From positions 124,001 through 188,000 of the forward strand of contig NZ_JAJNCL010000003.1 of assembly GCF_021025955.1 (NCBI RefSeq): DNA of 64,000 nt, given 5' to 3'. Position numbers and translations under genes: made by a program. The notes under the pieces are model-generated. The model saw only the letters and a program-made list of their open reading frames with translations. It made no database searches and had not been told where the DNA came from. The stretch's first letter is position 1, and every line of letters starts with the position of its first letter. The stretch comes from Rhodococcus qingshengii (GTDB lineage: Bacteria; Actinomycetota; Actinomycetes; Mycobacteriales; Mycobacteriaceae). Positions 4,214 to 31,030 of this stretch are shown here, one piece after another.

Positions 4214-4247
4214 AAACGGGCTAATGGTATGTTTACCAGCAACATAC
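4214..4247. promoter_or_regulatory. ARE-like element and overlapping inverted repeat in divergent glycan promoter
   Basis: 4214-4234 reads AAACGGGC-N5-GTATGTTT, the 8-5-8 layout of the sites at 18713, 30284 and 58712. The right half is an exact reverse complement of AAACATAC; the left half matches 5 of 8. An overlapping perfect inverted repeat has arms GTATGTT (4227-4233) and AACATAC (4241-4247) around 7 bases. It lies between two divergent starts (4153 and 4270). Binding by the TetR protein at 30389-31030 is inferred from its family. Confidence 0.5.
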
Positions 4248-4269: not shown

Positions 4270-6027
4270 GTGATCACCATCGAGACCCAACTGGCCACAT
4301 GGTTCGGGTCGGCAGACAAGCCGTTGCTCGGATTCGTTCACGTACCCATCTCGGGCACTGCCCGTGAAGCCGTGGTCATGTGTCCCCCGCTGGGCAAGGA
4401 GCACATCGACACCTATCGCGGCATGCGACTACTCGGCGAAAAACTCGCGGCACGAGGAATGGCTGCTTTTCGTTTCGAGTACGCGGGAGTCGGCGACTCA
4501 GCCGGCGCAGAAGACGATCCTGTCGCTCTCACCTTCTGGCTGGAGAGCATTGTCAGTGCTGTGGACTACGTCCGACGGGCGGGCGCAGAATCCGTGAGCA
4601 TCGTTGGACTGAGGGTAGGGGCACTACTGGCAGCGTCGGCATTGGAGGCATGTGGGACCGTCAACTCGATAGTCCTGTGGGACCCAATTCTGACCGGCCG
4701 CAACTACCTCAGGGAACAACGTGCGTTCTATGCGATCAGCGTCGGAGAGGACGATCCCACCGACTCACGCGTGTCGATCATGGGTGGCGTGCTGGCACCC
4801 GAATGCGCCGACCAATTGTCACGTCTCCGCATCACCGGGCCATTTCTCGGACGCCCGCACACGCTTCTGGCCGTGAAGTCTTCGGCAGTGGAGAGCAGGG
4901 CTGTCGCCGGGCTCGCAGCAACTCTCGATCCCGAGATGATGATCTTGGAGAACCACGACGCGTTCACCTCGCCCCCCAGTTTCTACGTCGACATTCCTTA
5001 CGACCACATCGAAGAACTGGCCGAATGGGTGGCTGAGCACGCCCCGGTGACTTCGCACGCTTTCACTCCGGCGATTACCACGACGGCACGTGTCGCAGTG
5101 ACACCCAGTGGCGACGAGGTTTTCGAATCACTCGAACGCGTGGGACCCAGCAAACTGTTTGCGATACGTACCCATCCCGCTGGAACAGAATCGCCTGGAG
5201 GCACTCTGGCCCCGCCCACTCCCGAGCGAGGCTTGTTGTTCTACACCACAGCTGTGGAGCACCGCTGTGGCCCAGGCCGCTCATGGGTGACTATCGCGCG
5301 TGAGGCTGCTGAACATGGGGTGACCAGCCTTCGATTCGACCGTCGTGGTGTCGGTGACACCGGACCGATTCGCGCCGACATGCCGACCGCTGTGTATTCC
5401 CGAAACGCCGACGAGGACGCCCTGGCTGCCGTCGACGCTCTGGGCGCGGACCCCAAGAATCTGATTCTGGCGGGATTGTGCTCCGGCGGCTGGACCGCAG
5501 CATCGGTCGCTCTGAAAGTCGGCGCCCGTTCCACCGTTCTCGTCGACATGATCCTGTGGTCGGTACGACGGAAGAAGTCGCTCGTCGACGCCGTGTTGCC
5601 GGAGGCTCCGCGGGCCATTTCTGACGGCGAGAAGCAGAAGCTGCCGTTCAAGGCCTCCCTTAAAGCTCAACTACAGTCCCGATTGCCGTACCTCGCATGG
5701 AAGCTGTTGGGGCAGAGGGGAATTACCCAGGTTCCCGAGGTACTGCTCGATGCACTCGACAAGAAGGGCGTGCACGCGACGGTGGTTCTCTCGCCGGCGG
5801 ATGTCGATTGGTTCCGGCAACAGCGTGGGCCCGAAGGGATCGCCAGAATGGCTCGTCGCGGGTACGACTTCGACGCCATCATGGCGCCCGTCGGTGACCA
5901 CCCGGCATATCACCGTGACCTTCGAACCCTCATCCAGTCCTCGGCAGTTTCCGCCGTCGCCACCCAGTTCGGAGGATCGAAACCGGGACAGTGCGTCTCG
6001 CGAACGACGAGCGGACGGTCGATGTGA
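4270..6027 (+). CDS. Tandem alpha/beta-hydrolase-fold protein with altered nucleophile elbows
   Basis: 585 residues, GTG start. Two alpha/beta-hydrolase-like halves are visible: residues about 20-260 and 295-560. Each has the oxyanion-side strand plus a GVGD motif (RFEYAGVGDS and RFDRRGVGDT). The elbow that normally reads GxSxG is GLRVG (113-117, Arg in the nucleophile place) in the first half and GLCSG (402-406, Cys404) in the second. The first pattern resembles exosortase-associated hydrolase-like proteins of polysaccharide loci. No signal peptide is evident. It is the first gene of the glycan operon and overlaps the next gene by 4 bases (GTGA). A role in modifying the glycan or its lipid carrier is possible but unproven. 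Confidence 0.7.
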   Translation: MITIETQLATWFGSADKPLLGFVHVPISGTAREAVVMCPPLGKEHIDTYRGMRLLGEKLAARGMAAFRFEYAGVGDSAGAEDDPVALTFWLESIVSAVDYVRRAGAESVSIVGLRVGALLAASALEACGTVNSIVLWDPILTGRNYLREQRAFYAISVGEDDPTDSRVSIMGGVLAPECADQLSRLRITGPFLGRPHTLLAVKSSAVESRAVAGLAATLDPEMMILENHDAFTSPPSFYVDIPYDHIEELAEWVAEHAPVTSHAFTPAITTTARVAVTPSGDEVFESLERVGPSKLFAIRTHPAGTESPGGTLAPPTPERGLLFYTTAVEHRCGPGRSWVTIAREAAEHGVTSLRFDRRGVGDTGPIRADMPTAVYSRNADEDALAAVDALGADPKNLILAGLCSGGWTAASVALKVGARSTVLVDMILWSVRRKKSLVDAVLPEAPRAISDGEKQKLPFKASLKAQLQSRLPYLAWKLLGQRGITQVPEVLLDALDKKGVHATVVLSPADVDWFRQQRGPEGIARMARRGYDFDAIMAPVGDHPAYHRDLRTLIQSSAVSAVATQFGGSKPGQCVSRTTSGRSM

Positions 6028-7436
6028 ATATCGCCACCCTGCTGATCGGTGCGGTACTGGGTGCCGTCGTGTGCGCGGCCATTTACCAGCGGCCACAGCG
6101 TGGCGTCCTGCTGGTGGCGCTGTTCGCCCCGTTGCACGGGTTGCTGGCGATCATCCCGAACGGCACGGCGTTGGCGGGGTGGAAGGAAGGTCTCATCCTC
6201 CTCACTTTGATATGCGCTTTCCTGAGCCCGAATCGCCACGGAGTCATTCGGCCGTCGATGCCGTGGTGGCCCGCAGCAGTCGTGTGGGTGGCGATGGGGT
6301 GCGTGTCGGCATTCGCCCTGTCCGGTCTGGGGAGTCTCGGCTCGATCAAGATCACCTACTTCTACATGCTGCTTCCCCTCATTCTGTGGCGCGCGCCGTT
6401 CACTCGTGAGGATCGTGATCATCTCGTCTCGATCCTGATGGGGGTGGGAATCCTCGCCGCAGTGGTCGGTCTGCTTCAACAAGTGGTCGGACCCGAATTC
6501 CTCGTCGGTCTCGGGTACAGCTACACCGAGGAGATACGTATCACCGGTGGGATTCTGCGGAGTTTCAGCACGTTCACCGGTCCGTTCGCATTCGGCCTGT
6601 ACGTGATGCTCAGCCTAGTTGTGGGGTTGTCCGTCAGTCTCAACGAGCCGACGCGTCTGCGGAACATGATCTTCCTTGCCGCCACGCCCATCATGATCGC
6701 CGGTATGGGGGTGTCCATCGTGCGGGCCAGCTACATCGGTTTCGCTGCCGGTCTCCTCTGGCTGGCGATCTACAAGTACAAGTCGCTGCTGGTGCTGTTC
6801 GCTGCCGCAGCCGCTGCCATCCCGATCGCTCTCCTTCTCACGCCCACTTCCGTGATGAAAGCGTTGTTCTCCTCGAACAGTCTCGAGGAACGTGGCAACG
6901 GTTGGTCGGAGACGGTCAGCTCACTGTGGGTGAATCCACTCGGACAAGGTGTCGGCGCGACCGGATCTGCTGCAGCGAAGGCCGCGGAACTGGCGCATCC
7001 CATGATCAACACATTGACGATCAAGGCAGCTACGACGCTGCGTCTGATCCCGTACCAGCCTGACAACTACTACATGAAGGTCGCCGTCGAGCTGGGACCG
7101 ATCGGGCTGTGGGTATTCACGTTGATCTTGGTGTCGGCGGCCGTCACGGGACTCCGTGCATCGCGCATCCTCCCCGGCCAGGACGGCGCTCTTTCGTTAG
7201 GCGTGAGTGCCTCGATCATCGCCGCATGCGTCGCGTCCCTGGTCTCGACCTACTTCGAAATTTTTCCACTCGACCTTTACTTCTGGTTACTGATAGGAAC
7301 CGCAGGATGCGCACTGAGCCAACACCACTCGGAGAAAACCGCGACACTCGGTCCGGAATCACCTACGGAGCCATGGCCCTCCGACCCGGCGGTGGTGGGG
7401 TCCAGACCTACGCCCGTGAGCTCCTCTCCGAGCTAG
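6024..7436 (+). CDS. Polytopic membrane protein, Wzy / O-antigen ligase-like
   Basis: About 470 residues with ten or more hydrophobic segments and a large extracytoplasmic loop near residues 280-350, the layout of Wzy polymerases and O-antigen ligases (PF04932-like). In a Wzx/Wzy pathway it would polymerise flipped repeat units on the outer face of the membrane. I chose GTG 6024, which overlaps the upstream stop as GTGA. A GTG at 5991 with a distant GGAGG is an alternative that adds 11 polar residues. The 3' end overlaps the next gene by 130 bases in another frame. The family has low sequence conservation, so the call rests on topology and neighbours (GT, Wzx, Wzz). Confidence 0.72.
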   Translation: MNIATLLIGAVLGAVVCAAIYQRPQRGVLLVALFAPLHGLLAIIPNGTALAGWKEGLILLTLICAFLSPNRHGVIRPSMPWWPAAVVWVAMGCVSAFALSGLGSLGSIKITYFYMLLPLILWRAPFTREDRDHLVSILMGVGILAAVVGLLQQVVGPEFLVGLGYSYTEEIRITGGILRSFSTFTGPFAFGLYVMLSLVVGLSVSLNEPTRLRNMIFLAATPIMIAGMGVSIVRASYIGFAAGLLWLAIYKYKSLLVLFAAAAAAIPIALLLTPTSVMKALFSSNSLEERGNGWSETVSSLWVNPLGQGVGATGSAAAKAAELAHPMINTLTIKAATTLRLIPYQPDNYYMKVAVELGPIGLWVFTLILVSAAVTGLRASRILPGQDGALSLGVSASIIAACVASLVSTYFEIFPLDLYFWLLIGTAGCALSQHHSEKTATLGPESPTEPWPSDPAVVGSRPTPVSSSPS

Positions 7437-8395
7437 TTCCGTTGATCGGCGCTTCCGCAAAGCTGAGCGCCACTGTGCAACAGGACGCAATCGGTGAGCT
7501 TCCGCCGGCGATGGAACCGATCAGCCGTCCCGTCGTCGCCGGCGTCCGCCGAGCAGCGTGGGCGATGGTCCCGATCAGCGGAACTGACCTCTTCCACAGT
7601 CTCGACGTCGATATTCCATTACGGCAGCGAGGCCTGACCGTATCGACCTTCCACGACATGTCGGTGTTCGACGTCCCATGGGCATTCAGTAAGTTTCGGG
7701 CCACCGGCGAGCGACAACTTCTGTCCATGGCGCTGCGTAAGGCAGATGTCATCATCGCGGTATCCGACTTCACGGCCGAACGCATCAAAGCCTTGAGTGG
7801 TCGCGACGCTGTGGTCACCCCCCTGGCGCCGGCGCCGTGGGCCACCATGCCCACCGACGCCGAAGTCGCGGATGTACGGGGACGCCTCGGTCTTCCCGAA
7901 CGATTTGTACTCCAAGTCGGGACGATCGAGCCCCGCAAGGATGTCGCGTTGGTAGCCGACGCCTGCCGTGAACTGGACATACCGTTTCTTCTCGCCGGTT
8001 CCGGTTCCACGGGACCCGATGCTCCGGAACACTCTGTCGGCCTCGGTTACGTTGCGACAGAGGATCTTCCCGCACTGTATTCAGCGGCTACGGCCGTCGC
8101 GTACTCGTCGCGATACGAAGGATTCGGACTCCCACCGCTCGAAGCCATGGCATGTGGCGGCGCGGTGGTCGCCAGCGCCGTAGGCGCGCTCCCCGATTTC
8201 GCCGACAACGGCGCTGTCCTGGTGAAAACTCACGACAAGGATTCCTGGGTTCGAGCACTCCGATCGGTGATCGACGATGCCGACTTTAACCGCACCCTTC
8301 GATCCGCGGCACCTGAAGTCGCGGCGCGATCGACCTGGACTCGAACCGCTGAACTCACCGTCGACAGCTATCGATCAGCGGGACTGAGCGTGTGA
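7307..8395 (+). CDS. GT4-family glycosyltransferase
   Basis: 362 residues from ATG 7307, preceded by an AGG-rich ribosome site. Translation could begin further upstream in the frame, but this start places the first beta strand and the glycine-rich loop (RPGGGGVQTYARELL) near the N-terminus as in other GT4 enzymes. The donor-site strand FVLQVGTIEPRKD and the EX7E motif (EGFGLPPLE) are present. Its 5' end lies inside the 3' end of the Wzy-like gene, so it is read from the same transcript. It should act on the cytosolic face, extending the lipid-linked repeat unit; sugar specificity is unknown. Confidence 0.88.
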   Translation: MRTEPTPLGENRDTRSGITYGAMALRPGGGGVQTYARELLSELVPLIGASAKLSATVQQDAIGELPPAMEPISRPVVAGVRRAAWAMVPISGTDLFHSLDVDIPLRQRGLTVSTFHDMSVFDVPWAFSKFRATGERQLLSMALRKADVIIAVSDFTAERIKALSGRDAVVTPLAPAPWATMPTDAEVADVRGRLGLPERFVLQVGTIEPRKDVALVADACRELDIPFLLAGSGSTGPDAPEHSVGLGYVATEDLPALYSAATAVAYSSRYEGFGLPPLEAMACGGAVVASAVGALPDFADNGAVLVKTHDKDSWVRALRSVIDDADFNRTLRSAAPEVAARSTWTRTAELTVDSYRSAGLSV

Positions 8396-8405
8396 GTTGG
8401 CATTC

Positions 8406-9995
8406 ATGACGAAGCGTCGACAATCCGCGGTCAGCCGAGTTTCGGAACGCGAATTCGCCGAACTCCGACAGGCTGCCGTCGACAAGTTCGAGCGGGAAAG
8501 CCTGGAGCGAGCGGCCAAGATTCACGGCCCGTCCGTTCCGGAACTGACTGCGAATGCAGCTCGTCGAAGCACCGTCATCATGCTGGCGAGCCGAGTTGCC
8601 GTCGCCGCGATGGGTTGGATTGGCTCCGTTCTGATCGCTCGATCGATCAGCCCGGAGCAATTCGGCCAGTTCTCACTGATTTTCGGGCTGCTGGGGCTCT
8701 TGTCCGTCATCACCGACCTCGGCGTCGGCAGAGTCGTCCTCGCGAAATTGGTCGAGAGCAACCCGTGGGACGTATCTCTGGTCACGTCGGCCTTCATCTC
8801 GCTTCGTATCGCCCTCGGCTTGTTCGGATACGTGTTGGCAGTCGGATACGTATGGGTTCTCGGCTACCCCGCCGACGTCGTCGAAGCAACGGCGATTGCC
8901 GGCTTGGTCGTCGTGGTAGCAACACCGAGCCACGCGCTTTCCGTCATGTACCAGAGCCGTCTGCGAATGACATATGTGGCTATCGCCGAAGGCCTGGGAC
9001 AGCTTGTCCAATTGATCGCGACTATCGCCGCGGTGCTGTGGAACCCGGTACTTGTCGTTCTTGTCCTTCCAGCCGTCGCCAACGAAGTAGTCGCCGCCGT
9101 CATCAAGATTCGTGGAGTGCGGAAAGGGATCGCCGGACCGCGGCCGTCGTCACGCGTCCAGTTTCGGCGATGGCGCGAAATGCTCATTGAGGCGATACCG
9201 CTGAGCATCGGATTCGCCTTCGTCACACTGCTGTCGAAAGTAGACGTGCTTCTCCTCGGTAAGCTCGACACCTTCGATTCCGTCGGTCTGTACACCATCG
9301 GCTACAAGTTCGCCGACCTCTTGTCGATAGTCGCGATCACGGTGGTCACCCCGGTCACGACCCTGCTGGTATCGGCTTGGCCGGACCAGCTCGATGTCTT
9401 CCGGCAGCGCAGTCGCGAGGCATTCATCGTGCTCACGTTGATGGGGAGTGCCGCACTGGTCGCATTCTGGCCCGCCGCAACCGAAGTTCTTGCCCTGCTT
9501 TACGGCTCGAGATTTGCTGCCGCCGATACATCCACTCGTCTCCTCGTCCTGGGAACCTGCTTTTCCATGCTGACCCAGTTGGGTCTCATGGTCCTGGTCG
9601 CGAGTGGTCGCCACCGCACGTATCCTTGGATCGCCATCGGCGGTTTGGTGATCAACGTTGTGATCAACCTGGTCCTCATTCCTCGAATGTCTTTCAACGG
9701 AGCCGCAATCGCCACGGTTGCCACCGAGATTCTCCTCTTCGCGGCAATCTGGATAGTGGTATTCCGCACACTCCCCGTTCGGAAACTCTTTCCGGCAGTG
9801 CCGTTCACGATCATCTCCGCCGTCTGCGCCGGCGTAGTCGTTCTGGGAACGCTGTGCGTGGAGAGATTCGGAATTCCATGGCTCGCTGTTTCGCTCGTTG
9901 CACCGATCATGATGATCGGAATCGTCGCAATGCTCCCCATCTCGGACGGAAAGTCCTTGACCTCACTCGTCAGACCACGTGGAGGAAATGCGTGA
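8406..9995 (+). CDS. Wzx-type polysaccharide flippase (MOP superfamily)
   Basis: 529 residues. The first 60 or so are polar; then come about 12-14 transmembrane segments typical of MOP/Wzx exporters, including the N-terminal motif region RSISPEQFGQFSLIFGLLGLLSV cut by helix boundaries. It would translocate the undecaprenyl-linked glycan unit to the outer face. ATG 8406 is preferred; a TTG at 8397 would add three residues. The unusually long charged N-terminal extension before the first helix is noteworthy and may be cytosolic. The stop overlaps the next gene as GTGA, with GGAGGAAA inside this gene as that gene's ribosome site. Confidence 0.87.
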   Translation: MTKRRQSAVSRVSEREFAELRQAAVDKFERESLERAAKIHGPSVPELTANAARRSTVIMLASRVAVAAMGWIGSVLIARSISPEQFGQFSLIFGLLGLLSVITDLGVGRVVLAKLVESNPWDVSLVTSAFISLRIALGLFGYVLAVGYVWVLGYPADVVEATAIAGLVVVVATPSHALSVMYQSRLRMTYVAIAEGLGQLVQLIATIAAVLWNPVLVVLVLPAVANEVVAAVIKIRGVRKGIAGPRPSSRVQFRRWREMLIEAIPLSIGFAFVTLLSKVDVLLLGKLDTFDSVGLYTIGYKFADLLSIVAITVVTPVTTLLVSAWPDQLDVFRQRSREAFIVLTLMGSAALVAFWPAATEVLALLYGSRFAAADTSTRLLVLGTCFSMLTQLGLMVLVASGRHRTYPWIAIGGLVINVVINLVLIPRMSFNGAAIATVATEILLFAAIWIVVFRTLPVRKLFPAVPFTIISAVCAGVVVLGTLCVERFGIPWLAVSLVAPIMMIGIVAMLPISDGKSLTSLVRPRGGNA

Positions 9996-11074
9996 CTCGC
10001 ACGCTCGTATTCGTCAGTCACACCGGAGAAGTGTCCGGTGCCGAACTTGTCATGCTCGAACTCATGCGATTGGCCAAAGTACGCGGGCACTCCGTAGTCC
10101 TCGCATGCGCAGAAGGACCGCTACGCAAGCGCGCGGCCGACATTGCCGAAATCATCGAACTCCCGGTTCTGGGCCTACGCGGTGAAAGCGGATTCGACCG
10201 CATCTCCGCGATCACGACGGTCGTGAAGAACTGGCGTAAAGCCGGACGTGTCATTGCCTCCCGAACACGAGGATCGAATGCGACCGTCATAGTGAATTCG
10301 CTGTTCGCGCTTCCGGCAATCAGACTCGGTGGGGTCGACGGCGGTGCCACATGGTTGGTACACGACACCCTCTCGAGCGCCAAGCAACGAATCGTGGTTC
10401 GAATCGCGAAGCCTGCCATCGTCAAAGCTGTCGCAGTGTCCGGACCCACCTCCGTTCCCGTGCGCCAGCTCGGTGTTCACACCACTATCTCGCGGCTCGG
10501 TGTCCCGGTACCGGCCGACGTCGTCGACATCAATTCTCCCGCAACAGGAGTCATCGGGATCATGGGCTCGATCACGCCGTGGAAAGGCCACCAGGTCTTG
10601 CTCGACGCAGTAGCCGAAATACCCGAGATCACTCTGGAGGTCGCCGGCACCGCGTTCCCGGGCGACGAAACGTACGTCGAAGAGTTGCAACGCCGTTCAG
10701 CGCTCCCGGATCTCGCCGGGCGCGTTCGGTTCCTCGGCCATGTCGATGCATTGAGCACCGTGCAGCGATGGGACCTGGCTATTTCGGCCAGCACGTCACC
10801 GGAAGCGGGACCTCTGGTGCTTCTCGAAGCAATGAGCGCGGGTGTACCGGTTATCGGAACGAACCACGGCGGTACGAGCGAGGTTCTCGCCGACGGCGCC
10901 GGCTCGCTGGTCGCGGTTGGCGACGCATCTCAACTGGCGTCCGAGATATCCAGACTGCTGGCGGACCACGCGTGCCGCACCGAACTTGCCGGAAAGGGTC
11001 GGCGGCGGGTAGTCGAGCGCTACGACATCAAGAAGAATCTACCCGCGATGCTGCAGGAACTCGTCAATGACTAG
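9992..11074 (+). CDS. GT4-family glycosyltransferase
   Basis: 360 residues, GTG start at 9992 with an excellent Shine-Dalgarno sequence GGAGGAAA at 9981-9988, overlapping the flippase stop by 4 bases. The N-terminal glycine/serine loop (VSHTGEVSGAELVMLEL), the donor strand IGIMGSITPWKGHQ and the EX7E motif (EAGPLVLLE) identify a GT-B GT4 enzyme. It probably adds a later sugar of the repeat unit. It overlaps the following glycosidase-like gene by 8 bases, so glycan assembly and the secreted enzyme are produced from one message. Confidence 0.87.
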   Translation: MTRTLVFVSHTGEVSGAELVMLELMRLAKVRGHSVVLACAEGPLRKRAADIAEIIELPVLGLRGESGFDRISAITTVVKNWRKAGRVIASRTRGSNATVIVNSLFALPAIRLGGVDGGATWLVHDTLSSAKQRIVVRIAKPAIVKAVAVSGPTSVPVRQLGVHTTISRLGVPVPADVVDINSPATGVIGIMGSITPWKGHQVLLDAVAEIPEITLEVAGTAFPGDETYVEELQRRSALPDLAGRVRFLGHVDALSTVQRWDLAISASTSPEAGPLVLLEAMSAGVPVIGTNHGGTSEVLADGAGSLVAVGDASQLASEISRLLADHACRTELAGKGRRRVVERYDIKKNLPAMLQELVND

Positions 11075-12152: not shown

Positions 12153-12374
12153 AAAAGAATCACTGAATCCATCCACAGTCGGCCAAAGCCGAAAAATACC
12201 AACCGGCGCATTCCACCAAGCCATGGAAGCAGTCATAGGTGCTGAAGAAAAGACCTGGCGACTTCTGTCTAACAAGCGATTTCGTGCAACCCTGCTACTT
12301 GCCGGATAGTTCGGCAATTTCCGGTTCCGCTTGGTCATTGGTGTTGCATCCACTGTGGAAGGAAGGTGGTCGAC

Positions 12375-15538: not shown

Positions 15539-16318
15539 TCAGTTACCCAACAGCCAACGAGGTCTCGACCACATCTGCCAGTACTCGATGATCTCGGCAC
15601 CTGCCGCGTCGTACAAGCCGTTGCCGACGTCACTACCGAGGAAGCACACCGAGCCCTCCCCAACCTCGGAATATGCGGTTCTGGCCACCTGACGCACAAC
15701 GCGCAACCCGTGACCCTTCCGTCGTCCGGTCGTACGCGTGCCGCCCGCCCAAGCCGTGCTGATCGGTTGCCCGAACGAAAGCATTGCCGCAGTCTGCAGG
15801 TCCCCGTCTTCGATCAATCCGAGGACTAACCGTTCCACGCGCCCGTCTGTGTACTTCGACGAGTACACGAGTTCCGCGGACGCCAGATCGACGCCGAACA
15901 CGTCTCCAGCGAGTTCGCGTGCGCCGGAAAGCTCCGCGCCATCGAGCACTTTGACGCTGGAGTCAGCTTCCCAAGGGATGTTCGGCATTGCTCGCAACGG
16001 ACTCGACGCAACACAGACCCAGCCCGCGTCCGCCATGACGGTGGCAGCGTTCAACCCAGCGCCGGCAAGCATGATGACGCTCCGCGTCTCCTCTGCGAGA
16101 ACCCGTTCCAACACCTCGGACGCATTCTTACGGACGTTCCCGTCGTAGACGAGCGCCAAGTTGTAACTTGGATCCGGAGCACCCGTGAGCGCAATCCACC
16201 ACCCGTCTTCCATGATGTGCAGACCGTCCGGCGGCACAAGTCCATACATGTTGTGTCCGAAAGCCTCCCTGACCGTGCGAATTCCAGCCACGGTTCCGGG
16301 TACTTGTCTCGCACTCAT
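15539..16318 (-). CDS. Uncharacterised protein, possibly GNAT-fold
   Basis: 259 residues from ATG 16318 (a TTG one codon upstream is possible; GAGGAT lies at a suitable distance). I do not recognise a family with certainty. Two repeating segments look like GNAT halves: VIMLAGAGLNAATVMADAGWVCV and the later RRKGHGLRVVRQVARTAY plus SVCFLGSD, the latter resembling an acetyl-CoA pyrophosphate loop followed by strands and a helix. There is no signal peptide or membrane segment. Its place between the Wzz-like gene and the initiating transferase suggests glycan modification, possibly acetylation, but this is guesswork from position. Confidence 0.45.
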   Translation of the reverse strand: MSARQVPGTVAGIRTVREAFGHNMYGLVPPDGLHIMEDGWWIALTGAPDPSYNLALVYDGNVRKNASEVLERVLAEETRSVIMLAGAGLNAATVMADAGWVCVASSPLRAMPNIPWEADSSVKVLDGAELSGARELAGDVFGVDLASAELVYSSKYTDGRVERLVLGLIEDGDLQTAAMLSFGQPISTAWAGGTRTTGRRKGHGLRVVRQVARTAYSEVGEGSVCFLGSDVGNGLYDAAGAEIIEYWQMWSRPRWLLGN

Positions 16319-16341
16319 CAAAGGGATCCTCGATTCAAAGT

Positions 16342-16975: not shown

Positions 16976-18484
16976 TCAGTAGGCCCCATCGCTCTTCACG
17001 ACAGCCGATACGGTTCGGACGATAATCGAAAGATCCTGCGCCACAGACCAATTCTCAACGTAGGAGGAGTCGAGACGGACCGAATCTTCCCAAGAAAGAT
17101 CGCTACGTCCACTGATCTGCCACAGCCCGGTGATACCCGGCTTCACGTACAGGCGTCGGGCAACTTCGTCGTCGTACATTTCAACCTCACGCCGCAGCGG
17201 CGGTCGCGGGCCGACAACGCTCATCTCGCCACGCAGGACGTTGAAGAACTGTGGCAGCTCATCGATGCTGAGGCGACGAAGGATCCTTCCCACCGGCGTA
17301 ATGCGGGGATCTGCGCGCATCTTGAACAGAACCCCGCCTGCACCTTCGTTGTCGCCAAGAAGATCGGTCACCTGCTGGTCTGCACCCTGAACCATGGTCC
17401 GGAACTTGTACATCAGGAACGGCTTTCCGTTCAGCCCGATGCGCTCGGCCTTGTAGAAAATGGATCCCTTGGACGTTGCCTTCACCGCGATCGCCGCAGC
17501 CGCCATGACTGGGGACACGAGAAGAATAATCAGAACCGAGAACATGGCGTTGAAGACGGCTGACAGACGATGGTTCGCACCTTCGTACCGCGGCCGCGCG
17601 ACGTGGATGAGGGGCAGCCCGGCAACCGGACGGAACATCAGTCGCGCCTTGGACACATCAGCAACAACCGGCGACACTACGAGGTCGACGCCCTCGGCTT
17701 CCAGATCCCACATGAGGGTGCGGAGTCCAACCTGACCCAAGTCTTCCGTGCCAGTGACGACGACCGTGTCAGCGATGCTCGAACGCATCGCGTCGACTAC
17801 CTCGAACTCGTTGCCGAAAACCGGAATTCGCGTTCCATCGACCATGATGTGGTCGTCAACCGCGGTAGCACGGCGAGGGATACACGCGCCCACGACGTCA
17901 TAGCCTGCCGATGCGTTACGGACGAACGAGCGAGTTGTCGCCACGACGGACGCGTGCCCACCGACAAGCAGAACTGAATTTCGGCACTTACCCGACGAGC
18001 GCTTGCGCAGAATGTCACGGCGCCACAGGTAGCGGCCGAGAAGCAACGCACCCAGTCCGACGGGGAGTGCGATCATGAGATAACTCCGGGCAATGCCTAC
18101 ACCCAGAACGATGGCCGCGAGAGCGCCGAGCCCGAACACCTGGCCGGTGGCAAGAAGTACGCGCTCGTACTCGTCGCTTCCCTCACCTAGCATCGACTGG
18201 TGGCGACTGCGCCCCCGAGCGAGTGCGATCATCCAGAGTCCGCCGAGCGCCACCGACGCGCCTACCTTCATCGGAGTCAACCACTCGATGGGGTGCGGCC
18301 ACATGCTCACGACCTGTGCAAGGACGATAACCAACACGACAGTGACGGAGTCACTGACGGCAATGCGACGCCTGTATTCCTGTCTCCAGTCCTCACCGAC
18401 CTTCGCCGGCGAACTCGACACGGGACCGAACGCACGGACAGGCGATAGCTCGGACTTGGTTTCCACCCCGACATGAACGCTCAT
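16976..18484 (-). CDS. Polyprenyl-phosphate sugar-1-phosphate transferase (WbaP/CpsE-like) initiating the glycan
   Basis: 502 residues. About five transmembrane segments at the N-terminus and a central CoA-binding-like region ([12 protein letters not shown]) precede the bacterial sugar transferase domain. Its hallmarks are [42 protein letters not shown] and [17 protein letters not shown]. This enzyme class transfers a sugar phosphate from a nucleotide sugar to undecaprenyl phosphate, starting repeat-unit synthesis at the membrane. It stands as its own unit, with 562 bases of non-coding DNA upstream that hold an inverted repeat and the best-conserved ARE-like site of this locus. Confidence 0.92.
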
Positions 18485-18712: not shown

Positions 18713-18733
18713 AAACATACCTTAGGTTTGTTT
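18713..18733. promoter_or_regulatory. ARE-like 21-bp semi-palindrome
   Basis: AAACATAC (18713-18720), five bases, GTTTGTTT (18726-18733). Both half sites are identical to those of the site at 30284-30304 upstream of the aminoacyl carrier-protein operon. The likeness to butyrolactone-receptor operators is from family knowledge; binding by the TetR at 30389-31030 is inferred. Confidence 0.6.
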
Positions 18734-23717: not shown

Positions 23718-26288
23718 TCAGTTTCCCGTAGCACTCGCCTTCTTCGACGTCCGCTTGGACTGTGAAGATTGTGCGGCCGGGACGCTCGGAGGTGTCACCG
23801 CCACACTGGTGTGAGAGTTGAGCGCCCGAACGCGACCGATCACTTTCGTCGCCTGGCCGGTTCTCCGTAGACGTACGGTCCTGCGACCGTTCGGCGCGAG
23901 GTGGAACCAGGAGTCTTCGGGCTCGAAGCACTGAAGTTCGAGTGCGACGTATTGGGCCGCGGCATCGGTCGAGACATCGACCACCCACTCGTCGTCACCG
24001 ATGTTGCGCGCCGTGGCGACAAGTCCGACCGAACGCTCGCGGGGCCGCGCCGGACCTCCCAGGAGGTGCACAACTTCGTCGACCATCTCGCCGTCTTCGG
24101 TTTCGAGGGTGACGGTGACCGCGTCGTATGTCCTGGCCCCGAATTGAAAGACGTGGGTGAGGTCGGTGAATCGGCCGACCAGGCTGTCAATTGACCAGGT
24201 CAGACTCGAATGCGCTTCCACCTTGACCGGTAACCCGACGTCGACCGGGACGACGCCTGTCCGACTGTGCGCCCGAAACCTGATCTCGCCGACCACGGGG
24301 TGGGCGGCCTCGTTGATCGCGTCGAGCCTCAAGCCATCCATACCGTCATCCGTGACGAGCAGTGCGATCGATTTGGCCCTCCTGCGCAGTATGAACCACG
24401 GAGCCTTGGGATTGCCGTTCCAGTCGAGGACCCCCCATCCCGGTCCGGGCTCCAGGTCCCGCAGTGCGAGTGTCAAGGCGCCGTCGCACCGAGAGTCCGG
24501 CCGACGCCAATAGCCGAGAGTCGACGCGTACGCCTCACAAACAGCTGCCCGACCCAGGTCGAGATACCGTTCCGGATCGGACCACCGAACGGCGCGGGGA
24601 TCCTCGCCGAAGAGTGTCTGGACGTAGTGGTCCCGAACATCCTCGAAATCCCACGACGATCCGTTGTCCCGCGGTACCGCGGCTTTCCACGCCGGGTGGT
24701 GCCCTGCCACGGCGATTGAACCGAATTCGTTTTCGATCACGGTGTTCGACGGCGGAATTGCGAATGCCAGTGACTCGGTGGCAAAACGCACTCGTGCGCC
24801 GAGTACGTCGGCAAGTGGACGACGGTACGCGCCTACCCCGAAGTAGTGGGCGACTCCGCTACCGACATGGGTGGCCAATTGATCTCCCTCGAGCGGCGCC
24901 GAGGGCGACGACGTCACATATTCCAGTTCAGGTGCAACTTTCGAGATCAGCTCGGGAAGTCTCGAATGAATGAGGGGAATGTGTTGATCGACCAAGCCCA
25001 GCATGGTCGGCTGCTGTTCGGTCTCGCTTCCCCCGCAGAGGACAGCCAGTGCCGGATTTCCGTGCACCCTCCGCAAGAATGCAGTGACCTCGGCGGCAAC
25101 GAGTTCGAAGAATCCGTCGGTGTCGGGCGGGTCGAGCGTCGCCAACATCATGTCCTGCCACACGAGAATGCCCAGGCGCGCGCATTCGTCCCAGAAGTGG
25201 TCGCTCTCGTAGACCATCGTTCCCGGGACTCGGATCATGTTCAGACCCGCCTCGGCCAATCGTTCCAACACACGAGTGGTGCCTGAGTCGTCTTGCAGTG
25301 AGACCGGGTCGGTCGGTACCCAGACCGAACCACGGCAGTACACCCCGACACCGTTGACACTCAACCGGAATCCGCCATCGGATCTGTCGACTTCCACCGT
25401 CCTGAAGCCAACTGGACCGAGGTGCTCGGATACTCCTTCCGTTTCCACCGTCACCGGATAGGTACGCGCGTCGCCGTGAGTGTGTGGCCACCACAACTGC
25501 GCGTCCGATACCTCCACGACGCCGGACACCTCGAGCAATCCGTCAGGACCGGGAACCGCGGCCAACTGTCGCGAGTGTTCGCCGACGCGCACGGTGACGT
25601 AACCCGTCGAGGCCGGCAATCCGGTGAGCCGGGCATTGACGGCGACGCGGCCGGTTGTGCCGTGGACACTCGCGAGCTTGTCGGCCGAAACTACGGCGGC
25701 AACTCCCAAGTCCAACAAACGAATACCCCGCCACGGACCCACTGGTACCGCCACGCTGCCGAAGACAGGAGCCATACCGAGCATCGTGGTCCGGATCCAA
25801 CGAAGACCCTGTTCACGGACCATCGACGAACGCCAACGTCCGCGCGGCCGCCGTGAACTCAAAGTTGCCGAGAGAGAATGAAAACGAATGGCCACTTGAA
25901 CGCGTTTGTCGCCCCCGGTTCCGGCGGTAACGTTCACCTCACCAGGCGTGAACATGGATTCGGCGGACGCCACGAGAACTCCGTCGATCCAGACATCCGC
26001 GAACGCAGTCACGCCGTCGAACTGAAGCAGCCACGACCCCTCATCGGTCGTAGCCACCGAGGTGACGAACCACCAGTCCGACGATTCAACAGACGCCGAC
26101 GCAACAGATTTTGTGCGTCCGGCGTCAGACTGCGACTCACGCAACGCTCCGCCGACCGTTCCCGGCACGGACGCTGTCACCCACTCGGTTACGGTGTCGA
26201 GAGCATCCGGATCGGACACGGACCCGGGTTCGGTTGCAGCGCATCGCCATCTCGCGCCGACCAACAGGTCTGCTGACGATCGAGGCAC
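23718..26288 (-). CDS. GH2-family glycosidase (beta-mannosidase-like), last gene of the carrier-protein operon
   Basis: 856 residues with the GH2 order: sugar-binding jelly roll (about 1-170), Ig-like domain, TIM barrel (about 300-600), C-terminal beta domains. The N-terminus reads WWFVTSV and [16 protein letters not shown], as in beta-mannosidases. The acid/base Glu422 is in CGGSETE, where most relatives have Asn before the Glu (CGGNE), so the Ser is unusual. The nucleophile candidate is Glu505 in FATES. No signal peptide is seen, so it is probably cytosolic. It starts 2 bases after the DUF1839 stop, hence the same operon. It may be a hydrolase or a transglycosylase; the substrate is unknown. 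Confidence 0.82.
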
Positions 26289-26290
26289 TG

Positions 26291-27277
26291 CTAGACCAAC
26301 CTCAGGCGTCGATACGAATCGACTCCAACTACGTCAGCGACGACATCCATCGCCCTCGTCCACGACACGGCCATCTCCTCGAGCTGCTCGCGGGGATCCA
26401 CCGCACGCCCCCTGGCTGCGCGAGCCATCTGAAACTGCACGCTCTTGGCCCCGGTCGCCACCCTGCGGAAATCGGGCGCAGCCTCGCCCGTTCCGGAAAA
26501 CCCTGCGGTATCCAGGAATTCGCTGACATCGGCAGCAAGCTCCGCACTGGCGCCGCACTGACGAAGTAGCCCGAACGACCAGAGATGAAAGCCGTCCATT
26601 CCCGCCCCCTGCACCCATTCGAGGTCGTCGATCACCCTCCGGCCCAGCTCGCGCACAGGATTGCCCGGCGCTCGAACCGCCACATTCCGCCGAGCCACTT
26701 CGGCGATGTTTCCGGCGTTGGTGGCGTGAACCGGATTCAACCGAATCTGTTCGACGTAGGGCACAAACGAAGGAAGTGAGGAACGATCGAGATCGAAAAT
26801 ACCTGCGAAGTCTTCCCCTCGTAGCAAGTAGTACCCGCTGTTGTGGAAGTACTCGAGCTCGCCGGCAACGCGATCGATCCGATTGGGCACGATCGTGGTC
26901 TTGGTGTGTGCCTCGTGATAACTCGTTCCGAGTGTGTCGGGAAGCCAGTATCCGTCCACCTCGACCGTCGACAGCATCCCGACCGCGAGGTTGTCCTCGA
27001 CATGTATCAGCGGTGCGCGCCAGACGTTCATCTCGGCGACTTCAATCCCGTACAGCGCGTAGATGTCCTCGGCCTTGAGCTTGAGGAACGTCCACTGATT
27101 ACCGTCGAATCGGGAGGAAAATGCGCAGGCCAAGGCCGGGACGGGGTCCAGTCCCAACGAATGCAACACTTCAATCCACAGATCCGTGTAGCAGTTGGTC
27201 TGCGCCCACACCCTGTCGTCCCGGTGCAATGTGTGAGGCAGGTGACGCTCCGGCGAGATGTCGACGAGACGTGACAT
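26291..27277 (-). CDS. DUF1839 family protein
   Basis: 328 residues. Recognisable DUF1839 features are an N-terminal WAQTNCYTDLWIEVLHSLGLDP, FDGNQWTFLKLKAEDI, and GELEYFHNSGYYLLRGEDF. The biochemical function is not established. In other bacteria this family is encoded next to amino acid:carrier-protein ligases, as here. ATG 27277 overlaps the ligase stop (TGATG); a GTG at 27280 is the alternative. There is no signal or membrane segment. The conserved Cys, His and Asp residues near the N-terminus could form a thiol-type active site, so an acyltransferase that takes the aminoacyl group from the carrier protein is a reasonable idea, but it is only inference. Confidence 0.8.
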   Translation of the reverse strand: MSRLVDISPERHLPHTLHRDDRVWAQTNCYTDLWIEVLHSLGLDPVPALACAFSSRFDGNQWTFLKLKAEDIYALYGIEVAEMNVWRAPLIHVEDNLAVGMLSTVEVDGYWLPDTLGTSYHEAHTKTTIVPNRIDRVAGELEYFHNSGYYLLRGEDFAGIFDLDRSSLPSFVPYVEQIRLNPVHATNAGNIAEVARRNVAVRAPGNPVRELGRRVIDDLEWVQGAGMDGFHLWSFGLLRQCGASAELAADVSEFLDTAGFSGTGEAAPDFRRVATGAKSVQFQMARAARGRAVDPREQLEEMAVSWTRAMDVVADVVGVDSYRRLRLV

Positions 27278-28233
27278 CACATGCCCATTCGTTCACGAAC
27301 GGCAAGGGGCCATGCCGATACATCGAGACCATGAGTTCTCAACAAAGACAATGCAATTCGCTCCATTCCGAAACCGACACATGAGCTGTGTGCCACCTCG
27401 CCCGCCGCCGTCCTGATGTCGAAATTGACACCGAAATGGTCGAGATGATTGTTCGACGACACGATGGCCGTCCCCTCGTCGAGATCCCCGTAGAGCCGAA
27501 CTGTCAGTTCCGTCTTGAGATTCTCTTCGCGTTGATTTGCCGCGAGCATCTTTCCTGCGCGGCCGAAGAACGGATCGTTGGCGATGACCGGAGTGGCGTC
27601 GAGTTCGAGCCGGCCCAGTACCTCGAGTCCCCGCTCGATCCAGTACTCGCGATGTGCTCGCGCCGCTGCGGCGTCGCCGATCGTCACGAACTCGTGCATC
27701 CGAAACGCTTGCATGCGAGCCGGATCGATCGCCGGTTCGTGTCGGAAGCAAAAGCCGTAGATGTCGAGCAGTACCCCACCTTCGGGGAGAACCCCGGTGT
27801 ACTTCGCATATGCCGGATGGCACGCAGCGGACACGAGCATGGTTTCGGTCGGCTCGAGGTGCTGATCCCAGGATTGCCCCTCGGCACGATCTGCAAGCAA
27901 TCGCGCGTGATCGCGGTTGGAGCCGGAAAAGGTGTTGATGGCGCCGGTGAGGTTGGGAAACGACGCGATGTAATCGGTGCGCTCGAAACTGCTGCGCGGG
28001 AACACCGGCGGGAACCGCAGCCGAGTAGCAGCGGCGCCCGGACCCGCTGCCATCACCACTCGGTCGATCCCGTCGACGATGTCCTCGAACACACCGGAAC
28101 GCCCATAGAGTCCCGGTACTTCCGTCTCAACGAGAAGCCCTTCGACAAGCAGTTCGCGCTGAAAAGTGGCCCTTGCCAGATCCAGGTCGGTCTCGCGTGC
28201 CGCGGTCTCTTCTGTCACGATCTCGGTTGTCAT
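27277..28233 (-). CDS. Amino acid:[carrier protein] ligase (atypical seryl-tRNA synthetase homologue)
   Basis: 318 residues, much shorter than a true SerRS because the tRNA-binding arm is missing. Class II catalytic motifs are visible: motif 2 FCFRHEPAID with MQAFRMHEF, and motif 3 CVGFGMERIALSLL. Cys138, Glu181 and Cys285 match the zinc-binding Cys/Glu/Cys set of the characterised Bradyrhizobium enzyme family, which activates glycine or alanine with ATP and loads it on the phosphopantetheine arm of a dedicated carrier protein. The carrier, its phosphopantetheinyl transferase and DUF1839 are all in this operon. The start overlaps the upstream stop as ATGA. The amino acid used cannot be read from the sequence. 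Confidence 0.9.
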   Translation of the reverse strand: MTTEIVTEETAARETDLDLARATFQRELLVEGLLVETEVPGLYGRSGVFEDIVDGIDRVVMAAGPGAAATRLRFPPVFPRSSFERTDYIASFPNLTGAINTFSGSNRDHARLLADRAEGQSWDQHLEPTETMLVSAACHPAYAKYTGVLPEGGVLLDIYGFCFRHEPAIDPARMQAFRMHEFVTIGDAAAARAHREYWIERGLEVLGRLELDATPVIANDPFFGRAGKMLAANQREENLKTELTVRLYGDLDEGTAIVSSNNHLDHFGVNFDIRTAAGEVAHSSCVGFGMERIALSLLRTHGLDVSAWPLAVRERMGM

Positions 28234-29420
28234 ATCGTTCCCCGGTATCCGATAGCCATGTGAGCTGACCCCGCCATGATTCGATCGTTGTTCACCATCA
28301 CTGCTGCGCCGTGCGCGTCACGAAGGTGCCGGCCGAGCGAAAATTCGGTGTCCTCGCGATAGCCGGAGATTCCGCAGATCAACATTGCCTGCCCGACGAT
28401 TTCCACCACCGCGGTGGAGGTAGTGACTTTCAAGTTGTTCATCGCGAGCGAAAAGCCCACAGCGCCGGTCGCCTCGGAATCGGCAGTGCCCACTTCGGCC
28501 TGGACCGCCTGGTCGTAACGTCGTGCCGAAGCGTCGACGAGATCAGCGAATTGTTGCGCAGAGGCTGCAACTTCGGCCAGCCTGAGCGCCCCGGGGGAGG
28601 TTACTCCCGGCTGTTTGCGGGCCGCGGCACGAACGTACTTGCGCGCCTTCTCGACAGCAGCATCCGCGATTCCCAACCACACCGAACTCCAGACGACGTG
28701 CGAGACGGGGAGCATGGTGTGCGTGGAGATCTCGGAATACGAGACGTCGGCAACCATTTCAGGCGTCGAGGTGGCCCGAAGGATGTAGCCGAGGCTGCAG
28801 GTTCCCCTCAGCCCCAGCGTGTTCCAGTCGGTGGTGCGTTCGAGAGTCAGGTCTCCGGTGCGGCACACCACGAGAACCTGATCGTTCGGCTGACTCTCCA
28901 CGGTACGCCTGGCAGTCACGACTATCGCGTCGGAATGCTCACCGTACGAAATTACGGGCGCGTTCTTGATCAGAAGGAGGTGACCGCCCAAATCTTCTAC
29001 GGCGCAGTAACTCCGGCTGACGTCACCACCGATTCCCAACTCGGTTGTCGCCGACGCCAACAGCAATTGCTTGTCGGCAGTTTCCTCGACGAACTCGCGG
29101 AGGGCTTCGGTGTTGCCATGCTTGAACAGCGAGTAGATTTGCGTCTGATGCATGGCGAAAATCATTCCGCTTGCTGCGCAGCGTGTTCCGAGCACTCGAG
29201 CGATCTGCGACACCTCCTGCAGCGAGAGGCCCTCGCCGCCGAGTTCCTTCGGCACGGCTACGGACAACAGTCGTTCACTGCGCATGGCATCGACGGCTTC
29301 GCGCGGAAACCTTGCTTCTACATCAACTTCGTCGGCCCACATCGCTGCAACTTCGTCGGCCACCCGTACAGCGCGCTCGAGAGCAGTCCCGGTCGAGCAC
29401 TGCGATTGCGGAGCGTTCAT
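28230..29420 (-). CDS. Acyl-CoA dehydrogenase-like flavoprotein
   Basis: 396 residues, full length for the family: N-terminal helical domain with PKELGGEGLSL, middle beta domain starting at LLASATTELGIGGDVSRS, and C-terminal helical domain with MNNLKVTTSTAVVEIVGQAMLICG. It should bind FAD. The gene sits between the carrier protein and its loading enzyme with ATGA overlaps on both sides, so the likely substrate is an acyl or aminoacyl group on the carrier protein rather than free CoA esters, comparable to prolyl-carrier-protein dehydrogenases. That substrate assignment is inferred from operon structure. Confidence 0.86.
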   Translation of the reverse strand: MNAPQSQCSTGTALERAVRVADEVAAMWADEVDVEARFPREAVDAMRSERLLSVAVPKELGGEGLSLQEVSQIARVLGTRCAASGMIFAMHQTQIYSLFKHGNTEALREFVEETADKQLLLASATTELGIGGDVSRSYCAVEDLGGHLLLIKNAPVISYGEHSDAIVVTARRTVESQPNDQVLVVCRTGDLTLERTTDWNTLGLRGTCSLGYILRATSTPEMVADVSYSEISTHTMLPVSHVVWSSVWLGIADAAVEKARKYVRAAARKQPGVTSPGALRLAEVAASAQQFADLVDASARRYDQAVQAEVGTADSEATGAVGFSLAMNNLKVTTSTAVVEIVGQAMLICGISGYREDTEFSLGRHLRDAHGAAVMVNNDRIMAGSAHMAIGYRGTI

Positions 29421-29659
29421 GCAGCACCGAGCTCCGTCAGCGCGCCCTCGATCGCGTTCACGCTCGCGAAGGTACTCTTCCGCAACAACTCATCCGGAAA
29501 CTCGATGTCGAACGAATCTTCAAGCGCCAGCATGACATTCACACTTGCGTGCGATGTCAACCCCAACTCGTAGAGATCAGCCTCGCCGTCGATCGTGTTC
29601 ACGTCGACCGCTAGTCGACCGTGCTCGACGAGCACATTCCGAATTGCCTGATCAATCAT
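29417..29659 (-). CDS. Acyl/aminoacyl carrier protein
   Basis: 80 residues, acidic, with the phosphopantetheine attachment site Ser36 in the motif LGLTSH (equivalent to the DSL/TSL motif). Four-helix carrier features follow (LEDSFDIEFPDELL). It overlaps both neighbours: 8 bases with the phosphopantetheinyl transferase upstream and 4 with the dehydrogenase downstream. The Thr-Ser variant and the position next to the ligase fit a dedicated aminoacyl carrier rather than the fatty-acid AcpP. Confidence 0.9.
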   Translation of the reverse strand: MIDQAIRNVLVEHGRLAVDVNTIDGEADLYELGLTSHASVNVMLALEDSFDIEFPDELLRKSTFASVNAIEGALTELGAA

Positions 29660-30098
29660 CAGCGATGTCGTCCTTCTTTTCGATGCGAGCGCCCGAGCGC
29701 GTTGCGATCACCATTGCGATGGCCACGTCCGCCTCGTGCGAGATAGATACTTGAAAGTCGTGTAAATCCTGCACCTGTGCGAGTTCGGCAGCATTACCGG
29801 TCAGAGTGACCCCGCAACCGCCCCACTCGGCTCGGGTGATCTCGATGGAGTTCCACGGCACGGGGACGTCACCAGGCCTGAGCACCTTCACAACAGCCTC
29901 TTTGGCCGCGAAACGTGCAGCCAATCGCTGATCCCGAGCCGGCCCGGCGCACGTCTGCAATTCATGTGGAGTGAAGGTCCGATCCAGGTACCGTCGCCCG
30001 AAAAGATCGATACTGCGGGTGACATCCACGACATTCACGACGTCACAGCCGATCCGCGGCCCGATGTCGAGCATCGGCGCCCGTGCGGTGTCACCCAT
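29652..30098 (-). CDS. AcpS-type 4'-phosphopantetheinyl transferase, first gene of the operon
   Basis: 148 residues from ATG 30098, which has AGGGGGAG 7 bases upstream; a GTG at 30128 lacks this. AcpS signatures are present: IGCDVV with Asp19, ARFAAKEAVVKVL with Glu67 (magnesium and CoA binding) and SISHE near the C-terminus. It should convert the adjacent carrier protein to its holo form. A private PPTase next to its carrier suggests a self-contained pathway. The ARE-like element at 30284-30304 is about 190 bases upstream of this start. Confidence 0.88.
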   Translation of the reverse strand: MGDTARAPMLDIGPRIGCDVVNVVDVTRSIDLFGRRYLDRTFTPHELQTCAGPARDQRLAARFAAKEAVVKVLRPGDVPVPWNSIEITRAEWGGCGVTLTGNAAELAQVQDLHDFQVSISHEADVAIAMVIATRSGARIEKKDDIADD

Positions 30099-30283
30099 CG
30101 CCTGACTCCCCCTTTTTTGGGGCCGCACACGCCGGGCAGCCCCCTATGCTGCCCGGTGCGCCGACGCCGTAATCCTGCCCTGACCAACCCTGCGTACTCA
30201 GCAATTCTTCAGCTACCGGTAGAACATACCGCAATCCGAAGATAGTCCGCAAGATCAGACTCCGAGATTCACATCAACGCCAT

Positions 30284-30320
30284 AAACATACTCCTAGTTT
30301 GTTTTGAATGCAGAACAAAC
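30284..30320. promoter_or_regulatory. ARE-like element fused to a second near-palindrome, operator of the carrier-protein operon
   Basis: 30284-30291 AAACATAC, five bases, 30297-30304 GTTTGTTT. The right half is shared with a second near-palindrome with arms GTTTGTTTTG (30297-30306) and CAGAACAAAC (30311-30320), 9 of 10 positions paired. The region precedes the operon that starts at 30098. Such stacked half sites fit TetR-type repression; the TetR gene ends only 69 bases away. Confidence 0.62.
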
Positions 30321-30388
30321 AGAATATTTTCCCTACCAGGAAATTTGCCACGAACTGAGCAAAAATGGGGTGGTCGAGCGCCGCGATG

Positions 30389-31030
30389 TCAGTGATCGCT
30401 GGCAAGGCGGCGAGCCGCAAATTGCCTGAAGTACTCCACTTTGGATTCCGGGACCACGATCGGAAGTATCAGGTTCCAGGACGCTTTCATGGAGTCCGAA
30501 AGCTCACGCACAGTCCCGGTCGCCGCTGCCATCAGCCGAACTCCGGATGCCACCTCCAACAGGAACCGGGCGATGTCGGCGGAATCCGCGTCCGAACGCA
30601 AATCACCTTCGTCCGCTGCACGACTGGCAAGTTCGCGGTAAATATCGAGCCAGACGTCGAGAGTTGCCGGACCGGAACCTCGATAGTCACCGATCTCCAC
30701 CAACAAACGGAAGGTCGCACGAACCATAGCGTCGTGCGCGCCGATATCCACGATCACGGACGAAATGCCGATCAGCGACTCGAGCGCGGGCGTGCGACGG
30801 TCCAACCAGAGTTCACATTTTGCATCAAAACGTGCCGACCCCTCGTCGATCACTGCCCGAGCGAGTTCTTCCTTGGACCCGAAATGGAAGTACAGGGCGC
30901 CCTTGGTCACCTGGGACTCGGCGATGATCTCGCTCAAGCTGGCGTTGGCATAGCCCAGGCGCAAGAACACCCCCGCTGCTCCGCGCAGCACCGAATCACG
31001 GGTGGCTTCTGCCCGCTCTTGCCTCACCAT
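30389..31030 (-). CDS. TetR-family regulator resembling gamma-butyrolactone receptors (ArpA/ScbR type)
   Basis: 213 residues from ATG 31030, with GGAGG 9 bases upstream. The N-terminal helix-turn-helix (SLSEIIAESQVTKGALYFHFGSKEELA in shape) follows the butyrolactone-receptor pattern, in which VTKGALYFHF is nearly invariant. In the ligand domain, DVWLDIYRELASRAADEGDLR places a Trp at residue 127, where receptors of this family have their ligand-stacking Trp. No butyrolactone synthase (AfsA) is in the window. It is encoded just upstream of the carrier-protein operon on the same strand. It may be a true receptor or a pseudo-receptor binding another ligand. Confidence 0.8.
   Translation of the reverse strand: MVRQERAEATRDSVLRGAAGVFLRLGYANASLSEIIAESQVTKGALYFHFGSKEELARAVIDEGSARFDAKCELWLDRRTPALESLIGISSVIVDIGAHDAMVRATFRLLVEIGDYRGSGPATLDVWLDIYRELASRAADEGDLRSDADSADIARFLLEVASGVRLMAAATGTVRELSDSMKASWNLILPIVVPESKVEYFRQFAARRLASDH

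Follow-up and report, generated by a model that had tools for sequence, protein, structure and literature searches.

The stretch of Rhodococcus qingshengii DNA analysed here (64,000 nucleotides of contig NZ_JAJNCL010000003.1, referred to as the window) carries a compact operon of six genes, all on the minus strand, that runs from an AcpS-type phosphopantetheinyl transferase (PPTase) through a carrier protein, an acyl-CoA dehydrogenase (ACAD)-like flavoprotein, a ligase resembling seryl-tRNA synthetase (SerRS) and a DUF1839 protein to a family 2 glycoside hydrolase (GH2). The first four junctions are overlaps of 8, 4, 4 and 4 bases and the DUF1839-GH2 junction is a 2-base gap; these coordinates (Table 1) agree with the initial annotation, which had described six genes read in one direction with overlaps or a 2-base gap. 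The PPTase start lies at about 30098, at an ATG that a GGGGGAG site precedes; in the list of open reading frames (ORFs) it begins at a GTG at 30128. A gene for a TetR regulator adjoins the operon, and beyond mfd and mazG the window contains a Wzx/Wzy-type exopolysaccharide (EPS) locus. This EPS locus, the double alpha/beta-hydrolase (ABH2) encoded in it, and a box that the operon has in common with the EPS sugar transferase gene had all been overlooked by the initial annotation.

The ligase gene is present in 19 of the 28 genomes of the genus, that of the window included, and the six-gene order with mfd downstream is kept in all 18 of the other genomes that have it. The operon arrangement is therefore not due to chance. 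A sigma-70 promoter scan returned zero matches.

Table 1. Features of the operon, its putative regulatory sites and the EPS locus, in window positions.
Feature	Position	Strand	Basis
TetR, ScbR-type butyrolactone-receptor family, putative regulator	30389..31030	-	NF041196 155.8 bits, cut-off 150
21-bp palindromic box AAACAAACTAGGAGTATGTTT, ~185 bp upstream of PPTase start	30284..30304	-	conserved in 8 aligned relatives
AcpS-type PPTase	29652..30098	-	PF01648 54.8 bits
Carrier protein, Ser36 in G-x-T-S-H	29417..29659	-	NF005480 106.9 bits, cut-off 72
ACAD-fold flavoprotein, usual catalytic Glu missing	28230..29420	-	PF02771 (Acyl-CoA_dh_N), PF00441 (Acyl-CoA_dh_1) above cut-off
SerRS-like amino acid:[carrier protein] ligase	27277..28233	-	NF005479 436.8 bits, cut-off 357
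DUF1839, CcbD/AziU3/CtaG-fold putative condensing enzyme	26291..27280	-	PF08893 331.8 bits
GH2, beta-mannosidase-like	23718..26288	-	PF22666 (Glyco_hydro_2_N2); PDB beta-mannosidases E 3e-35
Second exact box copy, ~230 bp upstream of EPS sugar transferase	18713..18733	-	equivalent position in nine relatives
EPS polyprenyl glycosylphosphotransferase (initiating sugar transferase)	16976..18484	-	TIGR03025 393.4 bits, cut-off 295.6
Two paralogous GH39-like, probably secreted proteins	11067-12152, 12366-13469	+	PF01229 (first); sequence similarity (second)
GT4-type glycosyltransferase	9977..11074	+	PF00534
Wzx flippase-like protein	8397..9995	+	PF01943 80.4 bits
GT4-type glycosyltransferase	7301..8395	+	PF00534
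Wzy/O-antigen-ligase-like membrane protein	5991..7436	+	PF04932 31.8 bits
ABH2, double alpha/beta-hydrolase, Cys nucleophile in second domain (G-x-C-S-G)	4270..6027	+	genome search, model
Degenerate box upstream of ABH2, half-site GTATGTTT exact	4214..4236	+	sequence
GT4-type glycosyltransferase	3017..4153	-	PF00534

The operon enzymes and their conservation

The solved structures nearest to the ligase are PDB 4h2w and 3mey, both of Bradyrhizobium Bll0957 (E 1e-64 and 7e-62). When compared with these, Cys138, Glu181 and Cys285 of the ligase align with the Bll0957 zinc ligands, which we take to be Cys131, Glu176 and Cys279, and all three are invariant in 17 sequences. The protein has 318 amino acids and is without a tRNA-binding N-terminal domain, residues 127-317 matching positions 307-506, the catalytic part, of a methanogen SerRS model. 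In the carrier protein Gly33, Ser36, Glu47 and Glu53 are invariant across 65 sequences. We conclude that the ligase and carrier, each above its curated cut-off, are of the amino acid:[carrier protein] ligase family, a characterised one, from which loading activity is predicted; the zinc ligand set and the aminoacyl-carrier-protein pathway proposed by the initial annotation are both borne out. Another genome has, beside other pathway genes, a ligase gene containing a single in-frame TGA (G266:C1:1641171-1642094), and a second, intact ligase is found 725 kb away.

A sequence search with DUF1839 against PDB returned nothing. We modelled the protein with AlphaFold2 from 40 sequences (mean predicted local distance difference test score, pLDDT, 93), and the predicted fold is a papain-like domain followed by a C-terminal helical bundle. 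A Foldseek search with this model was led by AziU3, CtaG and CcbD over the full length (E 2e-9 to 2e-4; next match E 0.06), and VIA-align gave Z scores of 19.7 for CcbD (287 residues aligned, root-mean-square deviation 3.5), 17.8 for AziU3 and 17.4 for CtaG, the next unrelated chain scoring 7.6; BtrH was absent among the matches listed by either program. Cys30, His146 and Asp157 are invariant in 47 sequences, along with about 28 further residues, as read from the sequence alignment, and the three are candidate catalytic residues. A 2023 survey placed DUF1839 among papain-like folds, proposed a C-(T/S)-H triad for it and guessed from context at a part in cell-wall glycan processing (PMC10318531). 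The initial annotation had called DUF1839 a neighbour of the ligase with no known function, but the protein is not without clues.

CcbD couples an amino acid held on a carrier to an amino sugar by a Cys-His-Glu ping-pong mechanism, and arginines in its C-terminal part grip glutamates of the carrier (PMC12945683). In the C-terminal bundle of DUF1839 Lys279, Arg287 and Arg292 are conserved, and the carrier has the invariant Glu47 followed by Asp or Glu at position 48, which is the conservation that CcbD-like docking would need. We regard DUF1839 as a putative carrier-dependent condensing enzyme of the CcbD type, which may form an amide.

In the ACAD-like protein Glu is missing from both of the usual positions for the catalytic base, with Val376 and Asn377 at that of the medium- and short-chain acyl-CoA dehydrogenases (MCAD/SCAD) and Ser240, or Ala, at that of isovaleryl-CoA dehydrogenase (IVD), the latter position having been set by hand. 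His91, His241, Asn378 and Arg380 are invariant in 58 sequences. A profile search matched dehydrogenases and also the ACAD-fold oxygenases DszC, KijD3 and DnmZ, and so does not decide between the two kinds; with the canonical base missing, an ordinary dehydrogenase has become a less probable assignment. The protein likely oxidises a carrier-bound group, by dehydrogenation or oxygenation.

Both catalytic glutamates of a retaining enzyme are present in GH2, the acid/base Glu422 in 41 of 42 sequences and the nucleophile Glu505 in all 42. The residue before the acid/base, normally Asn, is replaced by Ser in 33 of these, and hydropathy gave no signal-like hydrophobic stretch at the N-terminus. The acid/base Glu is replaced by Gln in one relative (L118:11736-14417), where the enzyme may be changed or inactive.

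A single search through the GTDB species collection yielded 80 loci with organism names. The carrier gene is present in 79 of these, the ACAD gene in 68, DUF1839 in 54 and GH2 in 48. They come from Actinomycetota, Planctomycetes, Proteobacteria, Chloroflexi (Ktedonobacter racemifer), Acidobacteria, Abditibacteria and Myxococcales, many being metagenome bins so that single taxon labels need care, and the set of carrier, ACAD, ligase, DUF1839 and GH2 recurs in about seven phyla. Since every one of the 48 GH2 loci also has DUF1839, and this across phyla, GH2 is a standing partner in the pathway. The initial annotation had called the glycosidase "added"; it is instead a core partner, found in 48 of the 54 DUF1839 loci and never without DUF1839 in this set, and its local acquisition is ruled out. 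In an order-wide sample the ligase also occurs in nine of the ten genomes that bear DUF1839.

Linkage to exopolysaccharide genes and a common palindromic box

The genome has two PF02397 genes, one being the sugar transferase gene of the EPS locus, and a chain-length-type protein was assigned in the locus by eye, with no Pfam match. In other taxa the core genes are followed by one for a protein of about 600 residues that is built of two alpha/beta-hydrolase domains, and ABH2 is its only full-length homologue in the window genome. Cys404 and His544 of ABH2 are invariant, the elbow of the first domain has Arg instead of a nucleophile, and the fold neighbours of its model are mostly esterases. An unannotated protein that looks like a member of the GNAT family is also encoded in the locus (15539-16321), with distant homologues near carrier or ABH2 genes in three other genomes (G094, G129 and G070); it could be another transferase.

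Within the genus ABH2 occurs in 18 of 19 ligase-positive genomes (the one without it is 74% complete), as against none of nine ligase-negative ones (p 1.4e-6), and within the order in 13 of 14 as against 4 of 236 (p 2e-17), both p-values being computed without regard to shared ancestry. Two of the four ligase-negative genomes of the order that have ABH2 carry the carrier and PPTase genes beside it. Loci L181 (G129) and L182 (G070) have carrier, PPTase and ABH2 genes with the SerRS-like ligase missing, and an AMP-binding enzyme close by in L182 suggests a replaced loader.

A sugar transferase gene stands immediately upstream of that for the PPTase in three large-genome relatives. In other phyla the module adjoins GT4, Bac_transf and ABH2 genes, and XrtA/PEP-CTERM EPS markers score above cut-off in two proteobacterial loci. 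Minimal loci (L092, L097, L173-L177) combine a divergent ligase-carrier pair with ABH2, glycosyltransferases and mostly a sugar transferase, and are without ACAD, DUF1839 and GH2. The operon proteins of four close relatives share 86-98% identity with those of the window, whereas ABH2 shares only 34-38% and the glycosyltransferases are replaced; such a pattern would be expected of an operon that provides the same activated aminoacyl donor throughout, next to an EPS locus that, with ABH2 as part of it, provides a variable acceptor.

The region between the TetR and PPTase genes contains a single strongly conserved palindrome, the 21-bp box of Table 1, of which exact copies stand at the ABH2-upstream position in relatives G003, G015 and G017. 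The pattern AAACAWAC-N5-GTWTGTTT has exactly two sites in the 6.48-Mb genome, those of the operon and the EPS sugar transferase, where about 0.0005 would be expected. All of the 17 exact boxes in seven subgroup genomes stand ahead of ABH2, the operon or the sugar transferase gene, and no exact box is present in four ligase-negative genomes. Only exact boxes were used as evidence; sites with two mismatches came near the background of a reversed control. Taken together, genetic linkage, the co-occurrence of ABH2 and the common box tie the operon strongly to EPS synthesis.

The box resembles the published autoregulatory element (ARE) consensus, AAACVGNNBVNNCSGTTT, but is longer. Genuine butyrolactone receptors have an acidic pI and a Trp in the ligand pocket (PMC7480387), and the TetR protein, which passes the ScbR-family model, has a pI of 5.21 and Trp127, so that its earlier description as receptor-like is upheld; it is 88-100% identical in relatives where it is adjacent to the operon. 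We infer that this adjacent TetR binds the 21-bp boxes. A homologue of AfsA-type butyrolactone synthases is encoded elsewhere in the window genome, far from the window (G000:C9:42812-43654), and is a possible source of the ligand. Because of it, the receptor more plausibly senses a butyrolactone, and the idea in the initial annotation that the operon product is a signal molecule is unsupported. A third box at 58712-58732, with one mismatch and a second half-site behind it, is conserved in relatives and precedes a low-complexity ORF without a Pfam match (58784-59356), possibly a further member of the regulon.

A proposed route and its alternatives

Gene content and order, the ligase and carrier families, the predicted fold of DUF1839, the conserved active sites, the EPS linkage and the common box were all computed here. 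We consider it fairly probable that on a carrier of its own the operon makes an activated aminoacyl unit, which then goes to a glycan precursor belonging to the adjacent EPS locus. The PPTase would turn the carrier into its holo form, and the SerRS-like ligase would adenylate an amino acid, presumably a small one, and load it. The ACAD-fold flavoprotein, where present, would then probably oxidise the carrier-bound aminoacyl group. DUF1839 would receive the group on Cys30 and hand it to an amine, most likely that of an amino sugar, forming an amide bond in a CcbD-like ping-pong reaction. GH2 might remove a sugar, exposing the acceptor or trimming the product, at a point before or after the action of DUF1839. 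ABH2, with the glycosyltransferases and the Wzx and Wzy proteins, would put the unit into the polysaccharide and export it, and the butyrolactone-type TetR receptor would govern the operon and EPS genes jointly through the 21-bp boxes. The initial annotation had named a glycan-attached aminoacyl product as one option, and this is the likely outcome; of its interpretation as a whole, the aminoacyl-carrier pathway and receptor-like TetR are also retained, the added GH2 and the DUF1839 without clues are corrected, and the signal product is unsupported.

Several observations weigh against this route. A cytoplasmic GH2 within a biosynthetic route is unexplained. ACAD, DUF1839 and GH2 are dispensable in some EPS-linked forms, the minimal loci, and so are not needed for every form of the pathway, and in 6 of 45 long loci from outside Rhodococcus the search made found neither ABH2 nor EPS-type genes. 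The 40-sequence DUF1839 profile gave no sequence match to CcbD, CtaG or AziU3, and since such similarity is undetected the function given to DUF1839 is read from fold, active-site residues and gene context. The shared ancestry left out of the co-occurrence p-values counts on the same side.

That CcbD, AziU3 and CtaG all work in small-molecule pathways raises the alternative of a small, diffusible operon product, either a lincosamide-like aminoacyl-sugar or a signal, the operon then lying beside the EPS genes only through common regulation or chance. ScbR-type receptors usually govern secondary metabolites (PMC7480387), and the operon is stable while the adjacent EPS genes are exchanged, both of which would fit such a product. 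However, the operon has no glycosyltransferase, resistance or export gene, and ABH2 and EPS genes co-occur with it in many taxa, and it also has an XrtA EPS context, so that we think this alternative unlikely.

We give still less weight to the possibility that the aminoacyl group is transferred to the glycan by ABH2 instead of DUF1839, with DUF1839 and GH2 acting in proofreading or recycling by thioester hydrolysis and sugar removal. The minimal ligase-carrier loci do retain ABH2 without DUF1839 and GH2, ABH2 has an elbow with a conserved nucleophilic Cys as well as a conserved His, and its variation follows that of the EPS locus, as would suit an enzyme specific for the acceptor; its fold neighbours are nevertheless mostly esterases, and the full-length CcbD-type fold of DUF1839 favours condensation. 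Modification of another part of the envelope (peptidoglycan, arabinogalactan or a lipid) is improbable, for although the loaded-carrier logic is the same as in the Dlt and Alm systems and the 2023 survey guessed at cell-wall glycans (PMC10318531), the conserved neighbours are Wzx/Wzy, GT4 and EPS sugar transferase genes, not cell-wall core genes, and no DltB-type membrane acyltransferase was recognised beside the operon.

Starting from the route to EPS, we tentatively suggest an undescribed class of polysaccharide decoration. In it a ligase derived from an aminoacyl-tRNA synthetase (aaRS) would charge a carrier, the papain-fold DUF1839 would amide-link the amino acid, perhaps oxidised, to an EPS amino sugar, and a glycosidase step would be obligatory; butyrolactone quorum control would apply in Rhodococcus, and the class would also take in XrtA-type Gram-negative EPS loci.

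Comparison with known systems

All proteins of the locus belong to known families or are related to them, and the novelty lies in how they are combined, in the tie to EPS and in assigning DUF1839 to the CcbD-type fold. A search of a literature library found no paper on the role of the ligase, the XrtA hydrolases or aminoacylated Rhodococcus EPS. The biological role of the amino acid:[carrier protein] ligase family was called unknown in 2022 (PMC9437257), and the locus offers it a testable one, EPS aminoacylation. DUF1839 becomes a candidate transferase, fold kin to carrier-dependent condensing enzymes whose structures came only recently. The partner set is conserved across phyla, and the regulatory box renders the predicted regulon checkable.

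Bradyrhizobium Bll0957 is reportedly a characterised amino acid:[carrier protein] ligase, from work by Mocibob in 2010 and 2013. The locus described here shares with ligases of that type families above the curated cut-offs, the zinc ligands, the missing tRNA-binding domain and an adjacent carrier gene, and differs in being tied to EPS loci, DUF1839, GH2 and ABH2. CcbD/LmbD (lincosamide), CtaG (closthioamide) and AziU3 (azinomycin) have in common with DUF1839 the full-length fold, as predicted, and a carrier protein alongside, and the conserved Cys/His/Asp set of DUF1839 may correspond to their catalytic residues; they belong, however, to antibiotic pathways with other adenylating loaders, and are related to DUF1839 in fold with sequence similarity undetected.

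The XrtA/PEP-CTERM EPS loci resemble the window in that ABH2 is a fused relative of their hydrolases TIGR03100 and TIGR03101, both associated with exosortase A, and in that the module occurs in loci with XrtA markers. ABH2 nevertheless falls below both cut-offs (TIGR03101 72.7 bits as against 202.75), and we claim no XrtA system for Rhodococcus. Dlt D-alanylates teichoic acid and AlmEFG puts glycine on lipid A. In these systems, as in the route proposed here, an amino acid is adenylated, loaded onto a carrier and moved to an envelope glycan. Here, in contrast, the loader is a relative of class II aaRSs and not an adenylation (A) domain, the predicted transferase is a soluble papain-fold protein, and a GH2 enzyme and a flavoprotein are present in addition.

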